Assembly: GCF_036785885.1 (NCBI RefSeq)
Contig: NC_092323.1
Span: 4,814,501-4,878,500 of the forward strand
Direction of reading: 5' to 3'
Length of the DNA: 64,000 nt
Origin: Coffea arabica
Lineage: Eukaryota; Streptophyta; Magnoliopsida; Gentianales; Rubiaceae
Below are positions 23,303-59,361 of this stretch, piece after piece (within the stretch, counting starts at the first letter, position 1; every line of letters begins with the position of its first letter). Position numbers and translations under genes: made by a program. The notes under the pieces are model-generated. The model was not told the origin of the DNA. It saw only the letters and a program-made list of their open reading frames with translations, and searched no databases.

Positions 23303-23570
23303 GTGCTCCTTCCATCCAATTTAAAATATCGCACTTTCTAATTTGAAATGTCCCAAAATATTTGTCATATTGAGAAAATTAAAGCACCTTTTAGTCTCTT
23401 CTTCCAATATTGTCTCTCCTTTAATAATATGTATACTACCATTCAAATTCAAATTTTGAATTTGTCGGGATAAGATTATAAAATGAAGTACAAACATTAC
23501 AATCAAACCATTGTTTTTTAAAAAAGTGGATTCGTGAAATTTGACAAAATAACTGGGACAAAAGGAGCAC
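23303..23570. mobile_element. Stowaway-like MITE (Tc1/Mariner type)
   Basis: Ends are GTGCTCCTTCCATCC and the inverse of GTGCTCCTTTTGTCC, the typical CTCC(T/C)TCCGTCCC-like Stowaway ends. A TA lies on the left side. About 268 bp. A partial second copy of the same end lies just to the left, at about 23246-23275. Confidence 0.65.
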
Positions 23571-27063: not shown

Positions 27064-28403
27064 TTACGTGGATCTATGAATCTGCCTGCCACATGGAACT
27101 TGATTGTTGTTGCTTTTGTCCTCGGAAGGCTTCCCGCAAAATTGAAGTACTACAAAGAGATTTATGGGGATGAAGGAAAAGATCAACATTAAAGTGGTAA
27201 TTGAGTGTGTACACAACTTTACTTCCATATTATTCTTAATGGGTATTCTGAGTTACCTTTTGTTGAACTCGTGTTGGTAACAGCACATAAGCTAGAAGAT
27301 GTCATGCTGCTACTAATGCCCCAATTTCCATTCGTAACAAGTGACCAGCTGTCGAAATTTGGACTTGCTTCTTTGGAGAGAATGAGGTTTCTCTGAAAAC
27401 CTAGGATCGAAGAAGGCTTCGGCTTTCTTATGATCCTTGGGGAGTCTTGAGATATTTCTTCCGCGCCTATTGCGCCGGCTCGAGGATTAAAACAGAAAAA
27501 TCCATCATCCTCTTGGATACTTGCATTCAACTTCAAGGAGGAGATCGTACCAAGCATGCTGGAGTCTTTAGTTTTGCAAGTGCCAATTTGGCTCCAAGCT
27601 GCAGGCTTTGTATGGTCTGGACTGAGGGGGATTAGATCAGGTGACTTCTGGTCAATACTCAGCTTCCTCAGGGAAATTTTTTCTCTTGTTCTTTCCCTAG
27701 CTCTTGCTCTCGCCTTTGCCCTAGACTCTTTTACAAGTTTACTTAATGCAACCATCTTTGGATTTTTTGCTTGATTAGTCTTCTTTCTCTTCCTCTTGGA
27801 AGCTGTCTTCTTTGATTCATCTTCTTTAGTGTTTGTTCCTGCAGCCACAACATTGCCTGCTTCAGACCAAAAGCATAGACACTTTGCATTTGCATCATGA
27901 TCAGTATCCTTCATGTCTAGTAGTTCCTTAATGGCAGCTTTTGACTTGGTGAGCAGCCAATCTAGAGTTTGGCTTGCTTTATCATAGCCTAGCAAGTCTT
28001 GAAGACCGAAAAACTTTCGTGCAATGTCCATGGACAGCCTAACTCTCCTATCCCTTGGACCTTGGGCTGTACAAATCTTGCTGTGCCGATCCCTTTTCGC
28101 CGGTTGCTTCCTTCTATAACGTGTGTGGAGAGGAGTAGCACTAGATATTTGTGGGTTGTTGGTCGATGCAGTAGTTGTCTTCTTGGTTGAAGTGGGAGTC
28201 GTCATCGTGTTGGCAGTTTCGATCATGGGCGCTACAGCAAGGTAATGAGAGAGCAGATCCTGGTGATGAAGAAGAAGAAATGCTTCATTATTGCCATTGA
28301 GGCCGAGGGTACTGGAAGTAGAGGAGGAGGTGGTGGAGGAGGGAGGGTACAGGTATGGTGAAAGCTGTGCAAAATGTGTAATCTCACTGCCAGAAGAGAA
28401 CAT
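27064..28403 (-). CDS. CYC/TB1-class TCP transcription factor, BRANCHED1-like, 2 exons
   Basis: DNA-binding regulator; BRC1/TB1 proteins repress axillary bud outgrowth. Exon 1 is 28403-27257 and exon 2 is 27149-27064, joined by a 107-nt GT-AG intron with matching phase, giving 410 aa. Seen: a TCP domain at about residues 103-162 starting [20 protein letters not shown], with helices [17 protein letters not shown] and [16 protein letters not shown]; and an arginine-rich R domain at about 221-242 ([20 protein letters not shown]). TCP plus R domain defines the CYC/TB1 class. The region between them has [10 protein letters not shown] where relatives have an ECE motif. The short last exon encodes [16 protein letters not shown], like the FGKPWE-type tail of BRC1 proteins, which supports BRC1 over CYC2 types. 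Without the intron the frame would read 12 more residues and stop at 27219; I prefer the spliced form. The 5' neighbour region is the long gene-poor stretch. Confidence 0.9.
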
Positions 28404-28781
28404 TTTTTTGTTTCTTTTTAGTATTGGGCGATCAGTTAGCTAGCAATCCTACCAACACTCAACAGTCACCTCAAGATTCTCAGAGATACAATACTTATGA
28501 TTAGCAGGCTCCATGAACTTAGGCATTCATCAGCTTGAGAATACATATCTGTGTTAGAAATCTGTTTTTTGTCTAGGGCTAGGGTTAGGAAAGTGGTATT
28601 ATTGAAGGCAAATGACGGAAAGGGGATTCAGAATCCATGTGCTGAGTGGGAAGTGTTGGAGAGGGGTCAGTGTCGCCTGTCACGTTGATAAGTGATTCCA
28701 TTTGGGGAATAAAATAGGGGCAATTAGCAATTTTTCCTTCCGTTCTGTTTTTAGCAAAATTTCCGACCAATTTCTAGATGG
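28404..28781. other. Upstream region of the BRC1-like gene
   Basis: Probable leader and promoter of the TCP gene. No TATA box could be assigned with confidence. Confidence 0.4.
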
Positions 28782-31945: not shown

Positions 31946-32995
31946 GGGATAATTTCAAAAACCTCCCATGAGGTTTTTGACTATTTTACTGGCATCCCTT
32001 CGAATTTCAAGAATTACACTAACTTCCCTTGTGATTAATTATCTTGTAACATTTAGGTGCAGTTGATAATTGAAAATTGATATTAGGAGAGAGTGTGTTT
32101 GGATAGAAGATTATTTGAAATAATTATTGTAACGCTTTTTGTGATACGATGTATATAAGATAATAAGATGATTGAGAAGATAAAAAGATATATTGGAAAT
32201 TGTGTTTGTGATATAAATAAATAATTTTTTTTTCAAATCATGGTTATCCAAACACACTCATATGATTCCATTATTGTCTCTCATATATTACATTATTTAA
32301 TTAATTTAATCTTAAACCACATATTAAAGAAACGCACTAAAATTAATGTTTGTCATTAAGGATCAAATCTAATATAGCATCAAAAAATAGTACTTTATCA
32401 TTTTATTTTTGTCACTTAATACAATATTCAAATTACTCTTGTTAGTTACATACCCATTATCAAACGTAATCAACAACAAATAATCAAAAAATTTGCAATC
32501 AAAATATTACAGAGAACAAACTTTAACATCATAAATATTCTTGTCAACATATTAAAATTAATTGTTGAGATTTTTATGGTATTAAAATTCATGCTTTGTA
32601 ATATTTTGGTTACAGGTTTTTTGATTATTTGTCGTTGATCACGTTTGCCAATGAGTTTGTAACTAAAAAAGCAATCTAGATCTTACATTAAGTAAAATAT
32701 GTAAAATAATATACTAGTTTTGATACCATATGTGATTTTATCTCCGATGATAAATAATAAATGCTAGTGTTTTTTAATGTTTGAACAGATATTAGATTAA
32801 TTAAATAATCTAATAGATGAAGGGTAATGGTGAAATTATATTATCTTTTCTATTCTAATATTGCTTTTAAATTGTTGGTTAGATTTAGATGTTACAAGAT
32901 AATAAAATTTAAGGGAGATTAGTATAATTTTTAAAATTTAAAGGAAGATCAGTGAAATAGTCAAAAACCTCAAGGGAGCTTTATGAAATTATCCC
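31946..32995. mobile_element. Non-autonomous Mutator-like element (TIR element), 1.05 kb
   Basis: Ends are inverted: GGGATAATTTCAAAAACCTCCC on the left and its near inverse, ending GAAATTATCCC, on the right, with similarity continuing for about 60 bp. The termini match those of the element at 33343, so both belong to one family. Flanking 9-mers TTTGGAATA and TGTTCAATA agree at 6 of 9, a possible decayed duplication. No transposase is visible. A small MITE sits inside at 32091-32259. Confidence 0.7.
32091..32259. mobile_element. MITE-like element nested in the Mutator-like element
   Basis: Ends are GAGTGTGTTTGGATA and its exact inverse TATCCAAACACACTC. About 169 bp, non-coding; same family as 22259-22439. 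Its position inside a larger TIR element shows it arrived later. Confidence 0.65.
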
Positions 32996-34018
32996 TGTTC
33001 AATACCATTACTTTCTAATCTTAAGTTGGTTCGTTCGCTGCCAAGATGCTACTAGGCATAAAGATTCTAGTTACGGGGCAATAAGCCCCAACTTGCACCC
33101 AATCCCCCACCCCTTTTCACGCCCTTTTCGTTCCTCCTCAATTGTACTTACTAGCCCTAATGATTTACACGATGAGTTAATTGTATGTAACATTTCTGTG
33201 TAGTTCAAACATTTTTTTGGTGGTCTCCTGTTGACGAGTTTATCCACTTATCTTGAATTCCTGACATTTTATTATTACCAAAAAGAAAATTCCTGACATT
33301 TTACAATCATTTAATTTCCACTTCTTTATCCCAGCAAAATAAGGGATAATTGCAGAAACCTCCCCTATGGTTTGAAAAATTGCACTAACATCTCCTGAAC
33401 TTACTAATCCTTTGCAAATTCAGTCCAAACGATTAAAATATTGTTTTAGGGAGAAAAATTAGAATTTTGTACCAGATTTGCCCTTTGTGCTACATGTCCA
33501 ATGAATGACAAAATACTACAAATCAATTAACAATTAATAAACTTTAAGGGGTGTAGTTTATGGGCAAATACGCATTACCTATTTAAAATACCAACTCTTT
33601 ATGGGTATTTTACTTTCAAATATTTAATTTATGATAAATATATCAATGTTTGTAAGTAAAATTCAAAAAGTGTTACAGAAATATTCTTACAAAAAGGAAA
33701 TCGGTAGGTTATCTATTTAATATAAATTAAATATTTAAAAAAAGGCCCATAAAGTATTAATTCTTTATGGTTTTCATCCATTAGATGAGTAAAGTATTAG
33801 CTTTTTATGGACATTTTATTCTGAATCATTTAATTTATGTTAAATACATAAATGTTTGTAACTAAAATTGAAAAAGTGTTACATTAATATTTTTACGGAA
33901 GGGAAACTAGTAGGTTTTGTATTTAACAAAAATTAAATATTTGAGAATACAAAGATTTGAGACAAATCTTTTGAGATATCCCAAAATCGAAAATATGACA
34001 CTTTCAATGAGATGGAAG

Positions 34019-37000
34019 TAGGCACGGCCACGGTTCAGGAACCGTCGGTTCTGGTTCTTCAAAGAGGTAGAACTAAAACCGCACCATATAAGATGGTTCT
34101 GGTTCCAGAACCTTCGATTCTGGTTCTTCAAAGAGGTAGAACCAGAATCGCATAGTTCTGATTTTGGTTCCTTATGGTTCTGGTTTCCGGTTCCGTATGG
34201 TTGTATACAATTTTATTTAATTTCTTATCCTTACTAATTTTAATACGAATATAACAATATATTTAAAATTTCAAATAAAATGTAAAAAAATAAATACAAA
34301 ATAAAGATCATATTTTAATTTTATTATTATTCTACAAAGTAAGAAGTAATAAATAGATAATATAAATTTTATGAAAAGTACATTACATTGTCAAATTTAA
34401 AAATACATTACACTATCAAATGGTTGTTATGTGTTGACTTTCTTGAGTTGGACAATCATCAATGTTGAAGATTCCATTTGAAGAAATATTACAAAAAATA
34501 TTTTTTTGCTTGCTTGATTTTGAAGATGAGCTACTACCATCAAAACTTATCATTTGATAGCAAATAAGCAAAAAGAAAATTGTAAGTAATAATTTAATAC
34601 TTACAAAATATAATGATACATATTAGATGAATAGAAAGAATTAAATAATTAATAAAATATATAGAAAGTCCATAAAATTTAAACTTTCTTAAAACCTATT
34701 AAAAACAACTATTTTTTTTTAATTATCTCACTACTTATATTAATTATTTTTAACGGTTCTGAAACCGACGGTTCTGGTTCTGGTTCTATTTTTTATAGAA
34801 CCAGAATCGGAACCTTTATCCAAGGTTCTACCACAGTTCTGGTTCCGGTTCTGGTCCGGTTCCAAACGGTCCGGTTCCGGTTCGGTTCCCGGTTCCAAAT
34901 AGAACCATTGTAAGAACCCGTATTTTTCTCATTTTCTAGGTTTTATTATCTTTCATGGCTTGTTTTCTGCATTTTCGTGATTAGGAAAAATTCTAGATAC
35001 TTTTAAGGAGCAGATATAGTTTTGAGATGATTTTTCTAGTATCGAATAGGTTTTGAGAAATTAAGAGCGTATACCGGACGTGGGACCCACTAGTGCGAAA
35101 AGTTCGAAAAAATTCGGCAATCTAGGTTAACTTTTGGATATTGAAATTAGTTTACCGGGTGTTAAGAGATAAGTAGATGTTACAATTTGGATTGGTGTGA
35201 GAGGAAACAAAGTGATAGACTTGCATTAAATAAGTGACAAGTGTCACCATTTGATTGGAGGGACTTGTAAGACTACTATTCATTTTCTTACCATTGACCA
35301 AATAAATCAAAAAAATACCAAAAATTCACCATTTTCTCTTCCTCTTGGCCGAGCTCTTCAAGCAACAAAAGAAAGAAAACTCTTCAAGTTTTTGGTTTCA
35401 ATCTTGCTTCAATCAACTCACTCAACCATCCAATCTTGTTTTTGCTCCATAAAATCACTTAAGGGAGTGATAGTGAGGTGTTGTGTGGAGTTATTTGGAA
35501 AGCTAAGAGGACTAGTTGCTCTCTCTCTTTTGTTTCTAAGGTGAGTTGTGAAGAACCCCTCTCCTCCCTCTAATGATGCTTAATTTATGCTTAGTGGTGG
35601 AATAAGATGCAACTTTATGGATTATATTGTGATTTTTGGTTGAATTGGTGAACTTTTGTAATTATTGGGGATTTTTCTGTTTTAATATGAATATGATTGT
35701 GTGGCTATGTATGATGATTGGAAATGGTATGTAAGGGATATAGGAGGTGGAAAAAGTGGATAATTGCAAGCAATTTTTGTTTTGGAAGAAAATTGAAAAA
35801 ATTAGGGTTTGATGTTCTTCATTCTGCCCGGTACTGTAGCTCATATCTATGGGCCGAATTGGCCTTGGATTAAAACATGAAAGTTGTAGGGAATGATATT
35901 TTAGAGGGTCCTGCAAAATTTTAGGTCAATCGGAGTAGCGTAGCTTGAGAAAAGTCGAAATTACCTTTGCTGTCCTGGTTTTACCCGAATTTGGGAATTG
36001 CTTCTGTAATTGGTTATTTTGGTTAGGAATGCTTGCGAATTGGTTGTTGAGGTCTTCTGATGAAATGTAGCCCTGTTTCTTACCTTTCAGCCGGTTTTGA
36101 AATTTCTGGATTTGGACTTAGGTAGGCTTATTTATGATGTTTAAACCAGAATGCGTTTAGTGAATCTGTTTTTCCGGTTCTGGTGTAGTATCTTGCATTT
36201 TTGACCTTGTTACACTCGAAACTGGATAGAGTTGCCTTCTGGAACATTGTAGCCCTATCTCTTAGCTTCGAAACGGTGGGTCTTGCACCTTAATTCGATA
36301 AGCGTAGTGCCATTGGCACCATTACCGGAAAATGAGGTCAAAAACTATTTTTTTCAGGGCTAAAGCTAATTCCATTTCCGGATTTTCTGGTTTTCCCCTA
36401 ATGCTTGTATATGCTTATGGAACCCTATTGGGGTCGTGTTTGGCATTGGTTTATGGCTCGTTATCGAGTCTCATTGTACTTGTTTGCATGTTTTAGGGCG
36501 TGACGGTGGTTCACGACGTTCTTTTGACGGAAGTGCATGAAACACCATTTGCAAGCTTGGTGAGTGTACTACTCACTTGTGTGTTACTATATAGCTTTGA
36601 TACTTGAACTTGATGAGTTGAATGTTAATTGATTGAAGTGAGAGCGTACTTTATCACTCTCACTTATTGTTTATCATGTTATTGGAATGTTACATGAAAT
36701 GTTACATGAAATGAAAGTACTTGACTTGGTGTCGATTGGACGAGTATCCAACGACTACAATTGTTATCATTGAGCTCAACCCCATTGGTAGTTGATTGAA
36801 TCGAGCCGGCGAGGGTTTGGTCGTGCCAATTAATGATCCTTGGGGAAATGTTATATGGAATATTGTAGTATGAGAGACTCTCGATTCCGGTATACTCGAG
36901 TAATACTACAGCGCAAGTATTTGGAGTTCGGGCCCGGTAGGGGGATGTTAGGTGGAAGGAATGGAAGTAAAGTGAAGTCTACGGTTGGTTACTTTTAAAC

Positions 37001-37667
37001 ATTGACGGAGAGTCAATGAGTTTCGATCAAGAATGCAAACGAGGAAAAGGGCTCTTGAGAGCCGCCCGTATCCTTTTGTCACCACCATTCATGTGTGCCT
37101 TTGTTTACTTTTGATGTATTGAAATGAAAAGCTTGATGCTTATATGAACTTGGTTGCTTGAGTAGTATTATCTCACTGGGCAATTAGCTCACTCTATTCC
37201 TTTTGTTTTCCTTACAGGAAAATAAATACTTTTGGACTGCAATTGATAATTGGTTGCTGAAATGAGCTAGTTGGACATATCTTTTGTATAGCTCATTTAT
37301 TGAAACCCTAAATATACTTTTGGGACCGTTTCTCTTTTGATTTGGCAACCAGACATGTATCCACTTTTGAATATTTTTGTATGCCACTTTGGCTTGTCAA
37401 TGCTAAGTTTCAAGATGTGAATGTTTGCTTGATATTTGGTTGGGTTCTGACGGGTCGGTTACTATTCATGGCCGACTTCGGATTTCATTTCTTTTATTTT
37501 TTTTATTTTGACATTTTGACTTGTTTACGCGCGTTTATAAGTTCCGGAACGCGATAGATCGCTCTAAACTGCACCGTTAGTCCTGGCGAGAGTTGAGCAG
37601 GCAGTCCGCTAACCCCTTTAGTTCGCCTTAGGGGAAGGTGGGGCTATCACAACCATAGCCATGCCTA
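34019..37667. mobile_element. hAT-like non-autonomous transposon nested in the Mutator-like element
   Basis: Left end TAGGCACGGCCACGGTTC and right end, inverted, TAGGCATGGCTATGGTTC, 15 of 18 identical. The 8-bp flanks GATGGAAG (34011-34018) and GATGGAGG (37668-37675) agree at 7 of 8, the size expected for hAT. Subterminal zones (34031-34200 and 34750-34903) carry many GGTTCTGG/GGTTCCGG repeats, like transposase-binding arrays. No transposase gene is seen. Its own length without the LTR inside is about 0.9 kb. Confidence 0.85.
34909..37651. mobile_element. Solo LTR of an LTR retrotransposon nested in the hAT-like element
   Basis: Fossil. It starts TGTAAGAACCCG and ends GGGCTATCACA, so has the TG...CA termini of an LTR, and is flanked by a perfect 5-bp duplication ACCAT (34904-34908 and 37652-37656). 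It is 2743 bp with no internal coding region, so it is a single LTR left by recombination. Length and terminal sequence suggest a Ty3/Gypsy element, family not certain. It is younger than the hAT-like element; the intact flanks suggest moderate age. Confidence 0.85.
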
Positions 37668-38587
37668 GATGGAGGGAGTAATAAATTAGCATTATCATAC
37701 CTTATTAAGACCATAGAAGCATCCTTGACGTAGTGTTAATTTAACAATTTCATTTGAATTCAAAAGTACTTTTCATATTATGCACTGCAACAAAAATTGA
37801 GCAATAGCTATGAAACTTTCAGCGAGGACTCCAAAATTTATCGGTAGAGTGTATAATCAAGCAAAGGACTTTCAAACTTCTCGCCCAATTTCAGAAGCCC
37901 ACTACAATTAGCGGGAAATAGTTCATGCTATAGGATGACTATAGTTCCTGCTTTGGTAAAATAAAACAATGACGGGCAGTGAGGCTTCGATTTCTTCAGG
38001 AGCAATTTCCCTTCTTCTTTCCATTAGGGAGAGAACCTCAAATTAATTTTTAGACCTTTGACCGATGAATAGTGCACCAATTTATTTTTTCGTATCAGTT
38101 TTGTGGTAACAGTTACACACACAATCAAAGATGTTTGAATTTTTTTTTCCTCTCAATATTGATTAGTTGGTTTAAAGGCTCAATTCTTTACCAAAAAGAG
38201 AATTTTTCTTCCACATTTTTAAATTAAAATCCAAGTAACCTAAAAATTAAGAACCCATTTCATTTTTAGAAGAAAATACGGTATATGTAAAATAAAGGGC
38301 TTTCACGTAATTGAAAATTTGTATGATAGCATGACATATATAGGTGTGAATATTCAGTGGATTAGGTAAGCGCTCATTTTGTCATTCATTGGACATGTAG
38401 CACAAAGGGCAAATCTGATACAAAATTCTAATTTCCCTCTCTAAAACAATATTTTAATAATTTGGACTGAATTTGCAAAGGATTAGTAAGTTCAGGAGAG
38501 GTCAGTGCAATTTTTCAAACCACAGGGAAGGTCAGTGCAAGTGTTAGAAACCTTAGAGGAGGTTTCTGCAATTATCCCGCAAAATAA

Positions 38588-46134: not shown

Positions 46135-46139
46135 CTTTT

Positions 46140-46211
46140 CGCCGTTGCCGGGGATCGAACCCGGGTCTCCCGCGTGACAGGCGGGGATACTCACCACTAT
46201 ACTACAACGAC
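46140..46211 (-). tRNA. tRNA-Asp (anticodon GTC)
   Basis: 72 nt on the minus strand, starting GTCGTTGTAGTATAGTGG and ending CCCCGGCAACGGCG, with no intron. The acceptor stem GTCGTTG/CAACGGC pairs apart from a G-U, and the T arm carries GGTTCGATCC, which is also the B box. The anticodon GTC lies at 46176-46178. The A box TAGTATAGTGG is intact. CAA 4-6 nt upstream of the 5' end is the usual plant start-site motif and a T5 terminator follows, so the gene looks functional. Confidence 0.98.
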
Positions 46212-47087
46212 AAGTTGATGTCCACCATCACAATGCAATGCATAGGAACGAGAAGAAAGCCTGTTTAACAAGTTAGAACCTTGGAGCTTCTACTTCACGA
46301 AAAAGAAAAAAAGGTCAAAAGTCATCCTTCGGTCAAATACATTACTGTGCTCCATTCCGTCTCCGTGTTTCTTTCCTATAAACATTTTTCAAGGCTCGTT
46401 TGGAAGAGTCCGTGAAATTTCCCCGACTTACTATTATCTTTCCGAAAGTTAATTAATTGTAGAAAGGAATCGTTTACTCGCAGGTTTTGATCTGCTAAAA
46501 TTTTATTCAAGATTTAATGTAGTGTAGACTATTGAAAGATTCTGCCGTCATCTTATAGTACTAGACATCAAAGTTAATAATTTTGGATATGGGTATTTGT
46601 ATATAATCGTCAGGATAGTATGTTATTTTTATTATCAATTTTTGGGATAGAAAAATTCTTGTTTGGATTGTTATATTTTGAAGGATCTTCATTTCATTTT
46701 TTTATGAGTACTCTTTTTATATATTTTTTAATCACTTTTTTACTTCGTATACATCACATCTTAAAAAAATTTTGTTAGTTCAATAATTTTTCTTCAAAAA
46801 CTTCACAAAAAAATGCAGTCTAACCGGGCTATAAGTTTAAGGGAGGTTAAGCCATTTCAAAACTAAGGCAATCCATCAGCCTCCAAAGGTTCAAGTACTT
46901 TTAAGAAATTACCTATCAATAGGACTTAAATTGCAGCAGATTTCGAGCTTAAGGGTGCCATCCAACTTTTGTTGGCAACTTTTTCCTTTTCCAAATTGCA
47001 TCGACATTATTGTTGTCAAGAAAATAGAGAATTTGCAATAACATCTACCTTCTATATAAGAAGAAAGCCAAGTTACTATAACAGCCC
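46212..47087. other. Intergenic, no gene seen
   Basis: AT-rich. TGTTTGGATTG near 46660 and CAGTCTAACC near 46816 may be the ends of a degraded MITE. Confidence 0.4.
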
Positions 47088-51388: not shown

Positions 51389-52778
51389 GTTTTGTATTTT
51401 GGAAAGAAGTTCTCCACTGTTTTGAACAGCAAAAGAAATGAGCAATAAGCCCATATTTCCATTTTTCTGGTTCAGTTGAAACCAAATGCATTATGGTGAG
51501 CCTGAACGTTGTAGCTTTTATTTGGGAAAATAAGAAAAAAAAAGATCGTGCAGTTTAGATCTATTTGACTCCGTTTGACAACTAAAGGAGTTTAGATCCA
51601 TTTGACTCTGTGTGACTGAGAAAGAAATGCATGTGTTTTCCTCCTCCTGGTACGGTAGACCATCATCAATTACCACATTTGAGGGTACCTTATATGTTAG
51701 TTTAGCGTTCAGGAACAAATTTATCACAGCCATCCATATAAACATCGAGGCTCCAATTGAAAATGCTCACTCTCTCGAGGCATGTGAGAGCATGAAAAAT
51801 GAATATTTTGTTGGTGGCTCAGATAGTGAAGTTCCAGGATTGAGATTTGTGGATATGGGTTTTGTGAGCATCAGATTTCTAAGTTGATGAAGCATGTAAA
51901 GAAAGAAGTGAGCATGATTTTTTCCCACTCTGAGAATGCTACTACAATTCCATTGCAAACAAAATTGAAGGATGCGACTTTTTAAGTTTTACCTATTGTG
52001 GTGGTGTCGATGCCATTTTGGTCAAAGATGTGAAAAAGGTTCTCGTCTAAAATCCGTATGTCTTGTAAGGACAATCAAATAAGAAGTCTCCGGCGTCAGT
52101 GCAGGTAATTAACTGCTGGCTGGTTGAGCTAAATCACAACCGGCATCTTGTCTTTGGAACTGCAACTCCGGTTTGTTTCTTCATATCTCGGATCATTTGC
52201 TCATCTCTTGAAACTTTTCAAATTAACGCAGCATCCGGTTCTTTATTTTTCTTCCCCTTTTTTGGTTAGCAGGGAGAGACTAATGTCTCCTGGCTAGCCA
52301 CCCCCACAAACGTCAGCACCAAGTAGTTGTTGTGAACATAGGTAATAAATTTATGGTATACCTTAATAAATTTAGGGCATACCTTAAACGTCCAAGTACT
52401 CAGCCATTACTTGATCATCTCTCTCCATCTCTATGTTTGTACTAAGTCGTAGATAAACTAACAAACGTAGTTAGGGTGGAGAAAGGAACTAATCCTGAAT
52501 CGCTAAGTGAATTGGATGAGTTTCGGTTCACGATTTAACCAGTTCAACTTGTTAATTGAGGGATCTGATGATCATCAAGTGGTGTGGCAAAATATGGATC
52601 AATTAAGTCTTTGAAAATTGGGTTTACTTGAATGTAAGCATGACAGATAGCGTCCAATATTCAATTGCTACAAAGGCCATAATTTTTTGTCTTAAAATGC
52701 AATGTGCAGAGCTGGAATGAGCGGGGAGAGTGTCATAAATGTTGATAATGGACCGTGACGCTATATACAGTGGTGTAA
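51389..52778. other. Intergenic, no gene recognised
   Basis: A 91-codon plus-strand frame (51612-51887) resembles nothing I know and has no supported splice context. Otherwise featureless. Confidence 0.45.
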
Positions 52779-52780
52779 TA

Positions 52781-53009
52781 CTTTTTCTCTCCATTGAAAT
52801 TGTTGTGCTTTTTATTTTGAGATATGTCAAAATATTTGTATTTATCAAAAATTATCCCTATCTTATCTATATTTTATACTAAATTAAAATTTGAATTTTG
52901 AATTTTAGAGGGCAATCTTGAAAATAAATTTATTAACACTACAATCACGCCACTATTAATAAGTTAGAAGTAAAAAATGCGACGAATAATTTATAAAGTA
53001 TGGAGGGAG
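52781..53009. mobile_element. Stowaway-like MITE
   Basis: The right end GGAGGGAG followed by TA and the left end TA followed by CTTTTTCTCTCC are imperfect inverses, with similarity continuing for about 50 bp. TA on both sides is the Stowaway target. About 229 bp. Confidence 0.65.
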
Positions 53010-53011
53010 TA

Positions 53012-54294
53012 TATGATAATGTTGTTTACTATAATTTTTCCAAATTTAACACTAAGGGGATGCTTACTACAAATTCAATTGCAAGACATGACTGATGCGA
53101 CCGTGACTTGCAAAGTAAGAGCATCACCAATGGAGGAAAAAAAAAAATATGAATGACTTAAGCAGAACAGATTAGGGTTCGTCAATCGAGCTAAATAAGC
53201 AAATTATAGCCCGCTCGTACATTTAGCAAACAAAATTGTGACATCAGACTATCATTCTTGAAGATAATTATAAATTGGGTAAAATGCACAAAAGGCCCAT
53301 GTGGTTAAACAAACTTACAAAAATACCTCCTTTAGGTATCTCGTAACTTAAACTAATTTGAAAATGTAATGAAAAACGTCTGAATGTATGAGTTTGAGAT
53401 ACACGCGCCTCTTTCGCGAGTATTTGTATTGGAAACAAGTAAAATTTTAGTTGATATATTTATTATATCCTTTAAAGGTAAAATGTAAGAAAAGCCCCCG
53501 TGATTAAGTGAACACACAAAAAAAATCCCTATAATTTTAAAACTACGTATCGGTATTTTGTAATTTGAACTAATTTGAAAAAGTGATGGTTACTTCTTTA
53601 TTTGTCCCTCCTAAAATATTTGAAATTTTTATGCTTATCAACTTTACTTCTCAATATTTTTGAAATTCTCTTTCTCATAGATATTGTCCATTTAAAAATT
53701 TTTAACATGTCTTTCTTATTTACATTGGCCTCCCTTAATAAATTAAGAATTCTTAATTCTTATGCTTCATAAAAGTGTTAGATCTAATTAAGGTAAATTA
53801 TAGACATAAATAAAAAAAATCTCTTTTGACGTTGCTAAACTACCACTCTATATTATAACATAATTTAGACGTCAAAGTATAATTGAAATAACAGAAAAAA
53901 TATGCTAAATATAAGCGCTTTTTGATTGTAAATTTACTAAAATTATATTTGATGTGATGTTGAAAATTGACCCATTTAACTTTAAGGTCTTGACTACGCT
54001 ATTGAGGTAGAGATAGGGAAAGGAGAGAGAAAGAAGAATGGTAGTTGAAAGCGAAGACTAGTGACAGCAATTGGTAACTATAGGAGGCTTTTCTCGCGAG
54101 TTGGCTTAATTACAAAGGTTTTTTTTTTTAATACAAATTTGCTTAACTAAAGTGGTTGTTAGAAGGCTTTTTTTTACTTGTATATATTAAAGTAATTGTA
54201 TCATTTTATTTGCTTTCTTACTTTTGCCGATGTTCGTCATTATCTTATATTAATTCAAACCAGGAGGTTCCAGAGTATATGATTTGAAAGTATA
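53012..54294. other. Intergenic with degenerate repeated blocks, no gene seen
   Basis: Two similar blocks (near 53280 and 53480) read TAAAATG(CA)...AAAAGGCCC/AAAGCCCCC, and a roughly inverted T-rich counterpart lies near 54118-54175. Probably remains of an old TIR element; ends could not be fixed. Confidence 0.35.
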
Positions 54295-57200
54295 CTAGGC
54301 ATTGTGCCCCGCGAGTTTCGCGGGGTGCCCATTATTGATTGTTTTGTTTAAGGATAATGGAAGATTTATTTAATAATTAATGTTTAGAGTGTTTTATATG
54401 ATAGTAGAGTTGGAATAATAAATAGAGGAACAATATATTGGATTAATATATTTATAAATAGATATAGTAATATTGTTGTGATTTGTATTTAATTTTTTAA
54501 GAGTAACAGGATGTAAATATTATTTAAATTAATGGAATGTAAATCATTTTTTCATAGTTGAGATAAATTAATAATTCGAAATAATTTCGATATGTTTATT
54601 TTTATATTGTTAAATATAAGTGGAAGTAGAATAAAGAAAATTTAGGGAATAGATAATTGCTATGTGCAAGAAGTTATAGTGGACATGTTTAATTATGATT
54701 GTTGGATAAAGTCTCTGCTGAAGAGCTGCAGATGATAATTGTTTTCATTGAGTAGAGTGAACAGGATGACACTTCCTTTATGTAAGAAGTGTTTTTGTGC
54801 GAATATTGGCCAACCTTCTGTTATTTCTATTCCTTCTAGCTGAAAGATCCATCGAGTTTTAGCATGATAGCAATTGATAACTCCTATGTTGTTTGTTTGT
54901 ATATGCGAGGGTATATCACCAATGAGTACCTGAGATAGAAAATAGGGAAAAAAATGTAGTTGTATTATGAAATGAGAGTAGCAATGTAGTGCATGAATTA
55001 TATTGATTGGAATGTAATTTGTATGAAACTCACCAAAGATTCAAGATCGTGTGTTAGATAGTGGAAGAGTTTAGTATTGAAAAACTAAAAGAAAAGAAAT
55101 ATAGTGAAGAATATAAATTCATAAATATAATATATACAAATTAATGATTTTTAACAATTTGAAATTATAAATTTAGAATCATATATTTGTATTTATTGAT
55201 CGAATAATTGTTTTTTGAATCAATAAATATTGGATTGATTTAATTTTAAGTTTATATATATTAGATACATGTCAAGTACATATGATTTTCATTCATTTGT
55301 ATTAATATGAAATAGTATAATCAATTTATATATATTGACTGCATACACATAGAATTTGTATTCATTTGCATATATTAGATGCACGTAGGATTTTTAGCGA
55401 TTTGCATATTTTTTCATATTTAATATTTTTGCTAATATATACATTTTGGAGAAAATTAATTAAATTTATATATATTAGATACATGTTAAGTACATATGAT
55501 TTTCATTGATTTGTATTAATACGAAACAGTATAATTAATTTATATATACTGATTGGATACACATAGAATTTTTATTCATCTGCATATATTAGATGTACGT
55601 AGGATTTTTAGGAATTTGCATATTTTTTCATATTTAATAGTTTTTCTAATATATATATTTTGGAGAAAATTAATAAATAAGTGAATAAATATAAAAAGAA
55701 GGCTATTTTATGTATTAGATGTGCATAGCATTTTTAGTGATTTGCGTAATTTTTTAACTGTTAATATTTTTGTCAATATACACACTTTCGACAAAATTAA
55801 TAAATAAGCGTGTTAATAAATAAGCGGATAAATACAAAGAAGGAAGGAAAATTATAAATATACAAATAGTCTCAAAATTATAATTATTTGATATAAATAA
55901 CACTTATTATACATTCATACAAGGTACTATTATTAATTTATATATATTAGATATGCGTTAAACACATATAATTTTCATTGATATGCATTAATACAAAACA
56001 ACATAATCGATTTATATATATTGATTAGATACATATAGAATTTTTATTCGTTAGTATGTATTAGATATACATAGGATTTTTAGTGACCTGCGTAATTTTT
56101 TGATAGTTAATATTTTTTTCAATACACACACTTTTGACAAAGTTAATAAATAAGTGAGTTAATAAATAAGCGGGTAAATATAAAGAAGGATGGAAAATTA
56201 TAAACATAGAAATAGTGTCAAAATTATAATTATTTCACATAAATAACACTTATTATATGTTAATACAAAGTACTATTATTAATTTCTATATATTAGATGC
56301 ATGCTAAACATATATGATTTTCATTGATCTGCATTAATACAAAACACCATAATCGATTGATATATATTGATTAATATGTTTGTGTATATAGCAACCTGCA
56401 TGTTTTTTTGATATTTAATATGTTTGTTAATATACACATTTTAGAGATGCACATAGGATTTTTAGCGATTTGCATATTTTTTTCATATTTAATATTTTTG
56501 CTAATATATACATTTTGGAGAAAATTAATAAAATTTATATACATTAGATACATATTAAGTACATACAATTTTCATTGATTTGTATTAATACGAAATAGTA
56601 TAATTGATTTATATATACTGATTGGATACACCTAGAATTTTTATTCATTTGCATATATTAGGTGTACGTAGGAATTTTAGGAATTTGCATTTTTTTCATA
56701 TTTAATATTTTTGCTAATATATATATTTTGGGGAAAATTAATAAATAAGCGAATAAACATAAAATGAAGGTTATTTTATGTATTAGACATGTATACCATT
56801 TTTAGTGATTTGCATATTTTTTTAATAGTTAATATTTTTGTCAATATACACACTTTCGACAAAATTAATAAATAAGCGGATAAATATAAAGAAGGAGAGA
56901 AAATTATAAATATACAAATAGTCTCAAAATTATAATTATTTGATATAAATAACACTTATTATATGTTAATACAAGGCAGTATTATTAATATATATATATT
57001 AGATATAGGTTAAGCACATATAATTTTCATTGATCTGCATTAATACAAAACAGCATAATCGATTTATATATATTAATTAGATACATATAGAATTTTTATT
57101 CGTTAGTATGTATTAGATATACATAGGATTTTTAGTAACCTGCATAATTTTTTGATATTTAATATTTTTTTTCAATACACACACTTTTGACAAAGTTAAT

Positions 57201-59361
57201 AAATAAGTAAGTTAATAAATAAGCGGATAAATATAAAGAAGGATGGAAAATTATAAACATAGAAATAGTGTCGAAATTATAATTATTTCACATAAATAAC
57301 ACTTATTATATGTTAATACAAAGTAGTATTATTAATTTATATATATTAGACGCATGCTAAACATATATGATTTTCATTGATCTGCATTAATACAAAACAC
57401 CATAATCGATTTATATATATTGATATATATTGATTAATATGTTTGTGTATATAGCAACGTGCATGTTTTTTGATATTTAATATGTTTGTTAATATACACA
57501 TTTTAGAGATGCACGTAGGATTTTTAGCGATTTGCATATTTTTTTCATATTTAATATTTTTGCTAATATATACATTTTGGAGAAAATTAATTAAATTTAT
57601 ATACATTAGATACATATTAAGTACATACGATTTTCATTGGTTTGTATTAATACGAAACAGTATAATTGATTTATATACTGATTGGATACACCTAGAATTT
57701 TTATTCATTTGCATATATTAGATGTACGTAGGATTTTTAGGAATTTGCATTTTTTTTTCATATTTAATATTTTTGCTAATATATATATTTTGGGGAAAAT
57801 TAATAAATAAGCGAATAAGCATAAAAAGAAGGCTATTTTATGTATTAGACGTGCATAGCATTTTTAGTGATTTACGTATTTTTTTAATAGTTAATATTTT
57901 TGTCAATACACACACTTTCGACAAAATTAATAAATAAGCGGATAAATATAAAGAAGGAGAGAAAATTATAAATATACAAATAGTCTCAAAATTATAATTA
58001 TTTGATATAAATAACACTTATTATATGTTAATACAAGGCAGTATTATTAATATATATATATTAGATATAGGTTAAGCACATATAATTTTCATTGATCTGC
58101 ATTAATACAAAACAGCATAATCGATTTATATATATTAATTAGATACATATAGAATTTTTATTCGTTAGTATGTATTAGATATACATAGGATTTTTAGTAA
58201 CCTGCATAATTTTTTGATATTTAATATTTTTTTTCAATACACACACTTTTGACAAAGTTAATAAATAAGTAAGTTAATAAATAAGCGGATAAATATAAAG
58301 AAGGATGGAAAATTATAAACATAGAAATAGTGTCGAAATTATAATTATTTCACATAAATAACACTTATTATATGTTAATACAAAGTAGTATTATTAATTT
58401 ATATATATTAGATGCATGCTAAACATATATGATTTTCATTGATCTGCATTAATACAAAACACCATAATCGATTTATATATATGGATATATATTCAATGAG
58501 TATTAGATCGATTGATTTGTAAGTAAATGTTCTTGGAAAAGATAATACTTGCATTAATCTTTTGGCAATTAATAAGATTATAAAATTTAAAGATAACACA
58601 ATTTTGGAGAGCCGGTTTTGTCATTGATATCAAGAATTAATAATGTTTCATTGAATAGCATATATGAATAAATACTTATTTGATGATGAAGTAATTTATT
58701 TATCGATTAATCAATATCATAGTAAAAGCCAACAAATAAATAATGTAATACATAAAAGTTATACTGTTGTGTATATATTAGGTGGATATAGAATTTTTAT
58801 TGATTTGCATAATTTTTTGAAAATTAATATCTTTCTTAGTATATAAAAGAGCAAAAGAAATTATATTTTGAAAAAGGAAAGATTAATACAAAGTTAAAGA
58901 AAGAAATTATATATGCTGAAGGAAGTTAATTAATAAAATTCATAAATTAGTATCTGTAATTTTTGTGAATAGAGCCCGACAAAGATTGGAGCAACGAACG
59001 ATGCACAGGAAACAAAACGATCAGATAACAGTTGGAGCGGCAAATTTTTGTCAATAGTGCCAGATAACAATTGCAGGAACGAAAGATGAACAGCAAACAA
59101 AAGCCTCGGATAACAATTGAACCAACAAAGGATGGGCAGCAAACAAAAGGACAAAATTGAACACAAAATTACAAAGAAACCAAGAGAAGGGCAGAATTGG
59201 AAGAAGAAAACAAAAGCAGAAATGAGCAAAAAAGCCGCAGCAGCCAAAACGGCTGTAGGGGAGCTGCGAAAGGACCAAAAAGGACAAAATGAGCCGTGAA
59301 ACCACAGCAAAACCGGCACAATCAACTATTCATCAGGCTTCGCGGCTTTAAGTAGTTTAGA
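54295..59361 (-). mobile_element. Non-autonomous Helitron, both ends present, 5.07 kb
   Basis: Read on the minus strand it starts TCTAAACTACTTAAAGCC (5' end at 59361), like the TCTATACTACTATTAAA start of plant Helitrons. It ends with a hairpin (CCCCGCGA, 3-nt loop, TCGCGGGG; 54307-54325) followed 8 nt later by CTAG at 54298-54295. The host base is A before the 5' end and T after the 3' end, the A-T target of Helitrons, with no duplication. No Rep/helicase coding region is visible, so it depends on another element. Most of the inside is a tandem array. A short three-copy repeat (CGAA(A/C)GATG...CAGCAAACAAAA) lies at 58990-59150. Confidence 0.85.
55240..58490. repeat. Higher-order tandem repeat inside the Helitron, unit about 1.06 kb
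   Basis: The block containing GTAGGATTTTTAGCGATTTG recurs near 55377, 56448 and 57511, and the block with CCTGCATAATTTTTTGAT near 56084, 57138 and 58199, a period of about 1055-1070 bp. Each unit itself contains related sub-repeats marked by TATATTAGAT(A/G)CATG...TTTTCATTGAT, spaced about 250, 455 and 351 bp in a fixed order. The last copy is partial. Very AT-rich and non-coding; open frames here are copies of the same repeat. Confidence 0.9.

Follow-up and report, generated by a model that had tools for sequence, protein, structure and literature searches.

Within the window, the 64,000-nucleotide stretch of Coffea arabica contig NC_092323.1 that was analysed as a whole, a non-autonomous Mutator-like element (MULE) encloses a non-autonomous hAT-like element, which itself encloses a 2743-bp TG...CA unit best read as a solo LTR (Table 1). 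Between the MULE and the hAT-like element the nest probably holds one further, partly recognisable layer, the end of a Stowaway-like MITE. The arrangement is very probably a stack of separate transposition events that involved the MULE, the MITE end, the hAT-like element and an LTR element later reduced to a solo LTR.

The layer borders are based on the nest locus, the ends of a neighbouring MULE and two MITE-like sequences elsewhere in the window. A first-pass annotation had described a nest of three layers, each with its own target duplication. All three duplication pairs and all borders are recovered at the positions it assigned: the MULE flanks are a perfect 9-bp pair of GCAAAATAA (9/9), the hAT-like flanks match at 7 of 8 positions and the inner flanks are a perfect 5-bp ACCAT pair (5/5). 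Alignment of the ends in reverse complement also pairs the MULE arms (152/165) and the hAT-like ends (15/18). The element ends, the duplications and the subterminal repeats of the hAT-like element thus bear out the three classes and their nesting, but the MITE-like layer and the neighbouring MULE had been missed.

Table 1. Features of the nest and of the neighbouring element (positions in the window)
Feature	Position	Strand	Basis or remark
Left 9-bp target duplication of the MULE, GCAAAATAA	33334..33342	+	
Right 9-bp target duplication of the MULE, GCAAAATAA	38579..38587	+	
Non-autonomous Mutator-like element	33343..38578	.	Inverted arms, 9-bp duplication, end motif
Left MULE arm	33343..33514	+	152/165 aligned positions identical to right arm
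Right MULE arm	38376..38578	-	One 31-bp unit more than left arm
Stowaway-like MITE, subterminal part, left of the hAT-like element	33955..34018	-	Similarity to 23306-23366 and 52792-52839
Left 8-bp duplication of the hAT-like element, GATGGAAG	34011..34018	+	
Non-autonomous hAT-like element	34019..37667	.	18-bp inverted ends, GGTTC clusters
Left 5-bp duplication of the inner unit, ACCAT	34904..34908	+	
2743-bp TG...CA unit, read as solo LTR	34909..37651	.	Ends, flanks, no terminal repeats
Right 5-bp duplication of the inner unit, ACCAT	37652..37656	+	
Right 8-bp duplication of the hAT-like element, GATGGAGG	37668..37675	+	
Terminus of the same MITE, GATGGAGGGAGTA, right of the hAT-like element	37668..37680	-	2 mismatches in 14 to TACTCCCTCCGTCC
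Probable second MULE with related ends	31946..32995	.	Flanking 9-mers only 6/9

Borders and classes of the elements

The outermost element measures 5236 bp with its inserts and about 1.58 kb in its own sequence, with the inner duplications each counted once. It starts with GGGATAATTGCAGAAACCTC... at position 33343 and finishes with the reverse of the same sequence at 38578. Its inverted arms measure about 172 and 203 bp; they are 92% identical over the aligned positions, and the outermost 21 bp match perfectly between the two ends. The extra unit of the right arm lies at about 38528-38558, after the first 20 bp, and a related direct repeat is present. One account of MULEs gives as their hallmarks long terminal inverted repeats, typically of 100-500 bp, and a duplication of 9-11 bp (PMC3310237); the outer element has both. 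The 22-bp MULE end motif, with up to three mismatches, occurs at four sites in the 64 kb where 0.01 are expected, a count reached by none of 100 shuffles, and these sites are exclusively the two ends of the nest MULE and the two ends of its neighbour. In its long inverted arms and 9-bp duplication the element resembles other non-autonomous MULEs with long inverted ends; it differs from them in the 31-bp excess of the right arm and in having no transposase or captured gene in the reading frames scanned.

The neighbouring element, 1050 bp long and 338 bp upstream of the left 9-bp duplication of the nest, is probably an older MULE with ends related to those of the nest MULE. Its arms agree with each other at 111 of 147 positions, and in all four comparisons with the arms of the nest MULE the similarity exceeds the maximum of 200 shuffles. 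The interiors of the two MULEs show similarity below the shuffle maximum in either orientation. The duplication of the neighbour is weak, since 1.6% of random pairs reach the 6/9 agreement of its flanking 9-mers and a 7/9 match becomes available at shifted borders.

The sequence proper of the hAT-like element consists of positions 34019-34908 and 37657-37667, which together give 901 bp. A by-eye count on the joined sequence finds 15 of 18 positions shared between its inverted ends, TAGGCACGGCCACGGTTC and TAGGCATGGCTATGGTTC; the three differences are all C/T. The end motif with up to three mismatches has one other match in the window, at three mismatches, with 0.10 expected in all. Counted on both strands, the pentamer GGTTC appears 12 times within the initial 192 bp of the element and 15 times within the final 179, and is absent from the middle 530. 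Clusters of subterminal motifs are usual in hAT elements. Inverted ends of 5-27 bp are among the features listed for the superfamily (PMC10741241), and the short inverted ends here are accompanied by an 8-bp duplication at the proposed borders. The 901-bp element therefore fits a non-autonomous hAT, sharing with such elements the 8-bp duplication, the short inverted ends and the clustered subterminal motif; it differs in that no transposase is found in the reading frames scanned and in that its right end is split by the inner insert.

When the hAT-like element is removed and its flanks are joined, the apparent end of a Stowaway-like MITE comes into view. The 8-bp duplication of the hAT-like element forms part of GATGGAGGGAGTA (in reverse, TACTCCCTCCATC). 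The conserved Stowaway end TACTCCCTCCGTCC is given by a primer for Stowaway ends in carrot (PMC3695323), with the start of which TACTCCCTCCATC agrees at all but one base; one end here matches the conserved sequence with two mismatches, one of which falls on the last base of the hAT-like element. At up to three mismatches, the window contains four sites of the Stowaway end motif where 1.42 are expected; as many arise in 7 of 100 shuffles, so that the motif by itself is not significant window-wide. One of the four sites, however, coincides exactly with the border fixed by the hAT-like element. The DNA beyond the other side of that element resembles Stowaway-like sequence beside the site at 23304 and at 52776-52840, the latter lying at the far end from the Stowaway site at 52998 in one and the same sequence. 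The similar segments, on the reverse strand, pair 33961-34021 with 23306-23366 and 33962-34009 with 52792-52839.

An ungapped comparison of the sequence joined across the hAT-like element with that starting at 23304 gives 47 identities in 69 positions, where the window mean over both strands is 18.8 (sd 3.8). Local alignment of the joined site yields a score of 64 with the 23.3-kb sequence, for which 300 shuffles peak at 35, and of 59 with the 52.8-kb sequence, for which they peak at 43. The 52.9-kb end of the 52.8-kb sequence gives a negative result (26, shuffle maximum 32), the inverted arms of the 52.8-kb sequence do not rise above shuffles (19, maximum 42), and a search for the left MITE end in the left interior of the MULE, at 33500-33960, stays within the shuffled range. 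A Stowaway-like end within the MULE is thus well supported; the evidence covers this one recognisable end rather than a complete MITE insertion. The likeness to Stowaway MITEs, which are of the Tc1/mariner type, lies in the terminus GATGGAGGGAGTA, the reverse of TACTCCCTCC..., and in a subterminal resemblance to two further MITE-like sequences of the window, and the difference lies in the single recognisable end in the nest.

The other MITE-like ends also bear on how many bases the hAT-like insertion duplicated. Against the 23.3-kb sequence, the alignment gives 66 with nine bases removed at the junction, 65 with eight, 65 with four and 64 with seven; against the 52.8-kb sequence it gives 64 with nine and 59 with eight. 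Nine is slightly above eight, which is not decisive for the exact register of the duplication.

The inner 2743-bp unit begins with TGTAAGAACCCG, finishes with GGGGCTATCACA and interrupts the hAT-like element 11 bp inside its right end. The nest contains 104 TG...CA pairs with perfect 5-bp flanks, and the ACCAT pair is weak when taken alone. The inner borders are nevertheless confined, because hAT sequence lies on both sides of the unit: the hand-chosen stretches 34895-34930 and 37630-37670 contain one TG and four CA, and the ACCAT pair is the only one that matches, where 0.007 are expected. The border is ambiguous by one base, in that a 6-bp AACCAT or a 5-bp AACCA also fits if the TG...CA rule is set aside. 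In one survey, LTR duplications were of 5 bp in 87.2% of cases (PMC6911290), and the unit has the TG...CA ends together with a duplication of the 4-6 bp (mostly 5) that marks a solo LTR. A solo LTR is the best reading of the unit. The LTR-LTR recombination is inferred from the absence of an internal region and of a second LTR. The TG...CA ends, the 5-bp duplication and the absence of terminal repeats of its own are shared with plant solo LTRs; the unit differs in that no relative was seen to place it in a lineage.

Pfam searches at an E value of 0.05 on 10 stop-to-stop reading frames of 52-104 amino acids within or overlapping the nest returned no family; these are 10 of the 26 listed, and the remaining 16 include some of up to 101 amino acids. 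Captured genes or a transposase in the nest are rejected for the 10 frames scanned. Because no transposase domain is found in them, the transposases would have been supplied by autonomous relatives elsewhere. In the window at large, a Pfam scan of eight reading frames gave families for five (a TCP transcription factor, an initiation factor 2 subunit family member, a DUF677 protein and two PPR stretches) and none for three; the families point to plant nuclear DNA.

Searches of non-plant collections were all negative and say little, as no plant genomes were included: the MULE end has no exact match in non-plant genome and viral contigs, an exact scan of viral contigs finds no copy of the joined MITE end, and a distant search of plasmids returns no match to the 2743-bp unit. 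In the literature, six of the end sequences led to a single paper, on wasps, through a match to one term.

Order of insertion and alternative readings

In the simplest history, a non-autonomous MULE with long inverted arms inserted first and copied 9 bp of its target, as the sequence shows. Its interior holds the apparent end of a Stowaway-like MITE, the other end of which is not recognisable. The 901-bp non-autonomous hAT-like element then entered this MITE end, copying 8 bp, as is again shown by the sequence. An LTR retrotransposon next inserted into the hAT-like element, 11 bp short of its right end, and copied 5 bp, which is shown as far as the borders go. LTR-LTR recombination would finally have left the single LTR, and autonomous relatives elsewhere would have provided the transposases.

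The first-pass annotation had considered the order of arrival fixed and had drawn it from the duplication lengths. The lengths identify the class of each element; the order of the insertions follows from containment. Containment does give the sequence MULE, hAT-like element and LTR, but the order of arrival at the locus is not fixed by it, since a loaded MULE could have moved here later. One published tool likewise reads nesting order from containment (PMC2672092), and a maize annotation peels off copies by order of arrival (PMC8547701).

The MULE may instead have arrived already loaded, bringing the whole nest, or all of it except the LTR, in one event, and the layer order would then hold only for the element's own lineage. 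The two outer ends are intact, whereas the hAT and MITE elements would be expected to be stuck, each having one end interrupted by the next insertion, the hAT end by the LTR and the MITE end by the hAT-like element. The perfect outer duplication beside one mismatch in the hAT duplication also favours a loaded MULE. The mismatches number 0 of 9 for the MULE, 1 of 8 for the hAT-like element and 0 of 5 for the LTR-like unit, and the first two figures carry little weight: at the hAT rate of 1 in 8, no mismatch in nine has a probability of about 0.30 (by arithmetic) even at equal ages. The duplications are too short to decide the order of arrivals. CpG depletion was rejected as an age ladder, as the observed/expected ratios (0.48 for the MULE, 1.07 for the hAT-like element and 0.74 for the LTR) are not monotonic and the GGTTCCGG-rich ends confound them. 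The simple order needs fewer steps, and arrival of the MULE in loaded form is unlikely. That the MULE acted as a vehicle, taking the Stowaway end, the hAT-like element and perhaps the LTR in one jump to a new site, is judged quite improbable; if true, whole nests could spread together, and the depth of nesting would not tell when a layer reached a given locus. Among the literature entries inspected, none seemed relevant by title to loaded or composite MULE movement.

For the inner unit, the alternative to a solo LTR is another mobile element with TG...CA ends, such as a DNA transposon of the Ginger type or a short but complete retroelement. Ginger elements likewise have TG...CA ends and duplications of 4-6 bp (PMC10741241), and no relative with an internal region came to light that would speak for an LTR element. 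The inverted ends of Ginger elements, however, are given as 40-270 bp (PMC10741241), and a small complete retroelement would carry LTRs of its own. Comparison of the first and last 300 bp of the unit gives 29 as a direct repeat (shuffle maximum 43) and 19 as an inverted repeat (shuffle maximum 33). With neither kind of repeat rising above shuffles, a Ginger-type element or a small complete retroelement is very unlikely, and both candidates were rejected for want of terminal repeats in this comparison and among the 5 longest of 9 inverted pairs from a repeat scan. The solo LTR is retained as the best reading.

That the flank matches are due to chance and at least one layer is misdrawn, a reading to which the abundance of TG...CA pairs with perfect 5-bp flanks in the nest lends itself, is extremely improbable, given the single fitting pair at the confined inner borders and given outer two layers whose ends are set by inverted repeats and whose flank matches are equalled by only 11 (9/9, MULE) and 345 (7/8, hAT-like element) of 400,000 random position pairs from the window, in which the 9-mer GCAAAATAA occurs four times.

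Implications

Nesting is common in plants, with 1491 nested LTR pairs analysed across 12 plant genomes in one study (PMC6911290), and nested insertions into Stowaway elements have been described in carrot (PMC3695323). The elements of the present nest are all of known kinds, and nested elements of such classes are ordinary in plants. Like the plant nests described in that study and in maize (PMC6911290; PMC8547701), it consists of elements within elements ordered by containment; it differs from them in being made mostly of small DNA transposons around one LTR-like unit.

The general picture of plant genomes is unchanged by this locus. Its value is that of a clean worked example, in which the duplications let the layers be peeled away and the peeled site exposes a hidden MITE end. 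It is of use for annotation, and it cautions that the order of nesting is one claim and the order in which elements reached a locus another.

Genomic surroundings of the nest

The transposon nest, in which a Mutator-like element (MULE) holds a hAT-like element and an LTR-like unit, begins ~4.9 kb from the TCP ORF, on the ORF's 5' side, and there is no evidence that it affects this gene. The tandem-array region is AT-rich, with two copies of the shorter unit and ~8 of the longer (65% matches). Of the two window sequences compared with the putative Stowaway-like MITE end inside the nest MULE, that at 52785-53013 has no inverted arms exceeding shuffles.

Features of the interior, genes and comparison sequences
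Feature	Position	Details
Stowaway-like sequence	23304-23568	borders set by eye; served as comparison
TCP transcription factor ORF	27222-28439	minus strand; Pfam E 3.6e-43
Inverted repeat GAGTGTGTTTGGATA...TATCCAAACACACTC	32091-32259	169 bp; left part of neighbouring MULE
Direct repeat	33573-33741, 33779-33947	169 bp; nest MULE, left interior
tRNA-Asp (GTC) gene	46139-46212	minus strand; Rfam match 46140-46211
Stowaway-like sequence	52785-53013	borders set by eye; served as comparison
Tandem arrays	55246-58486	214-bp and 347-bp units

Interior of the elements

The direct-repeat copies in the nest MULE are 78% identical at a spacing of 206, and the stretch holding them also contains many inverted repeats. 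Within the LTR-like unit, a splice-donor-like AAG/GTGAGT (35541-35546) and an acceptor-like TTTTCCTTACAG (37206-37217), both noted by eye, could be chance occurrences. Visual inspection of the inverted repeat in the neighbouring MULE revealed no target duplication. This repeat is probably a MITE, and the neighbouring MULE is therefore probably nested as well.
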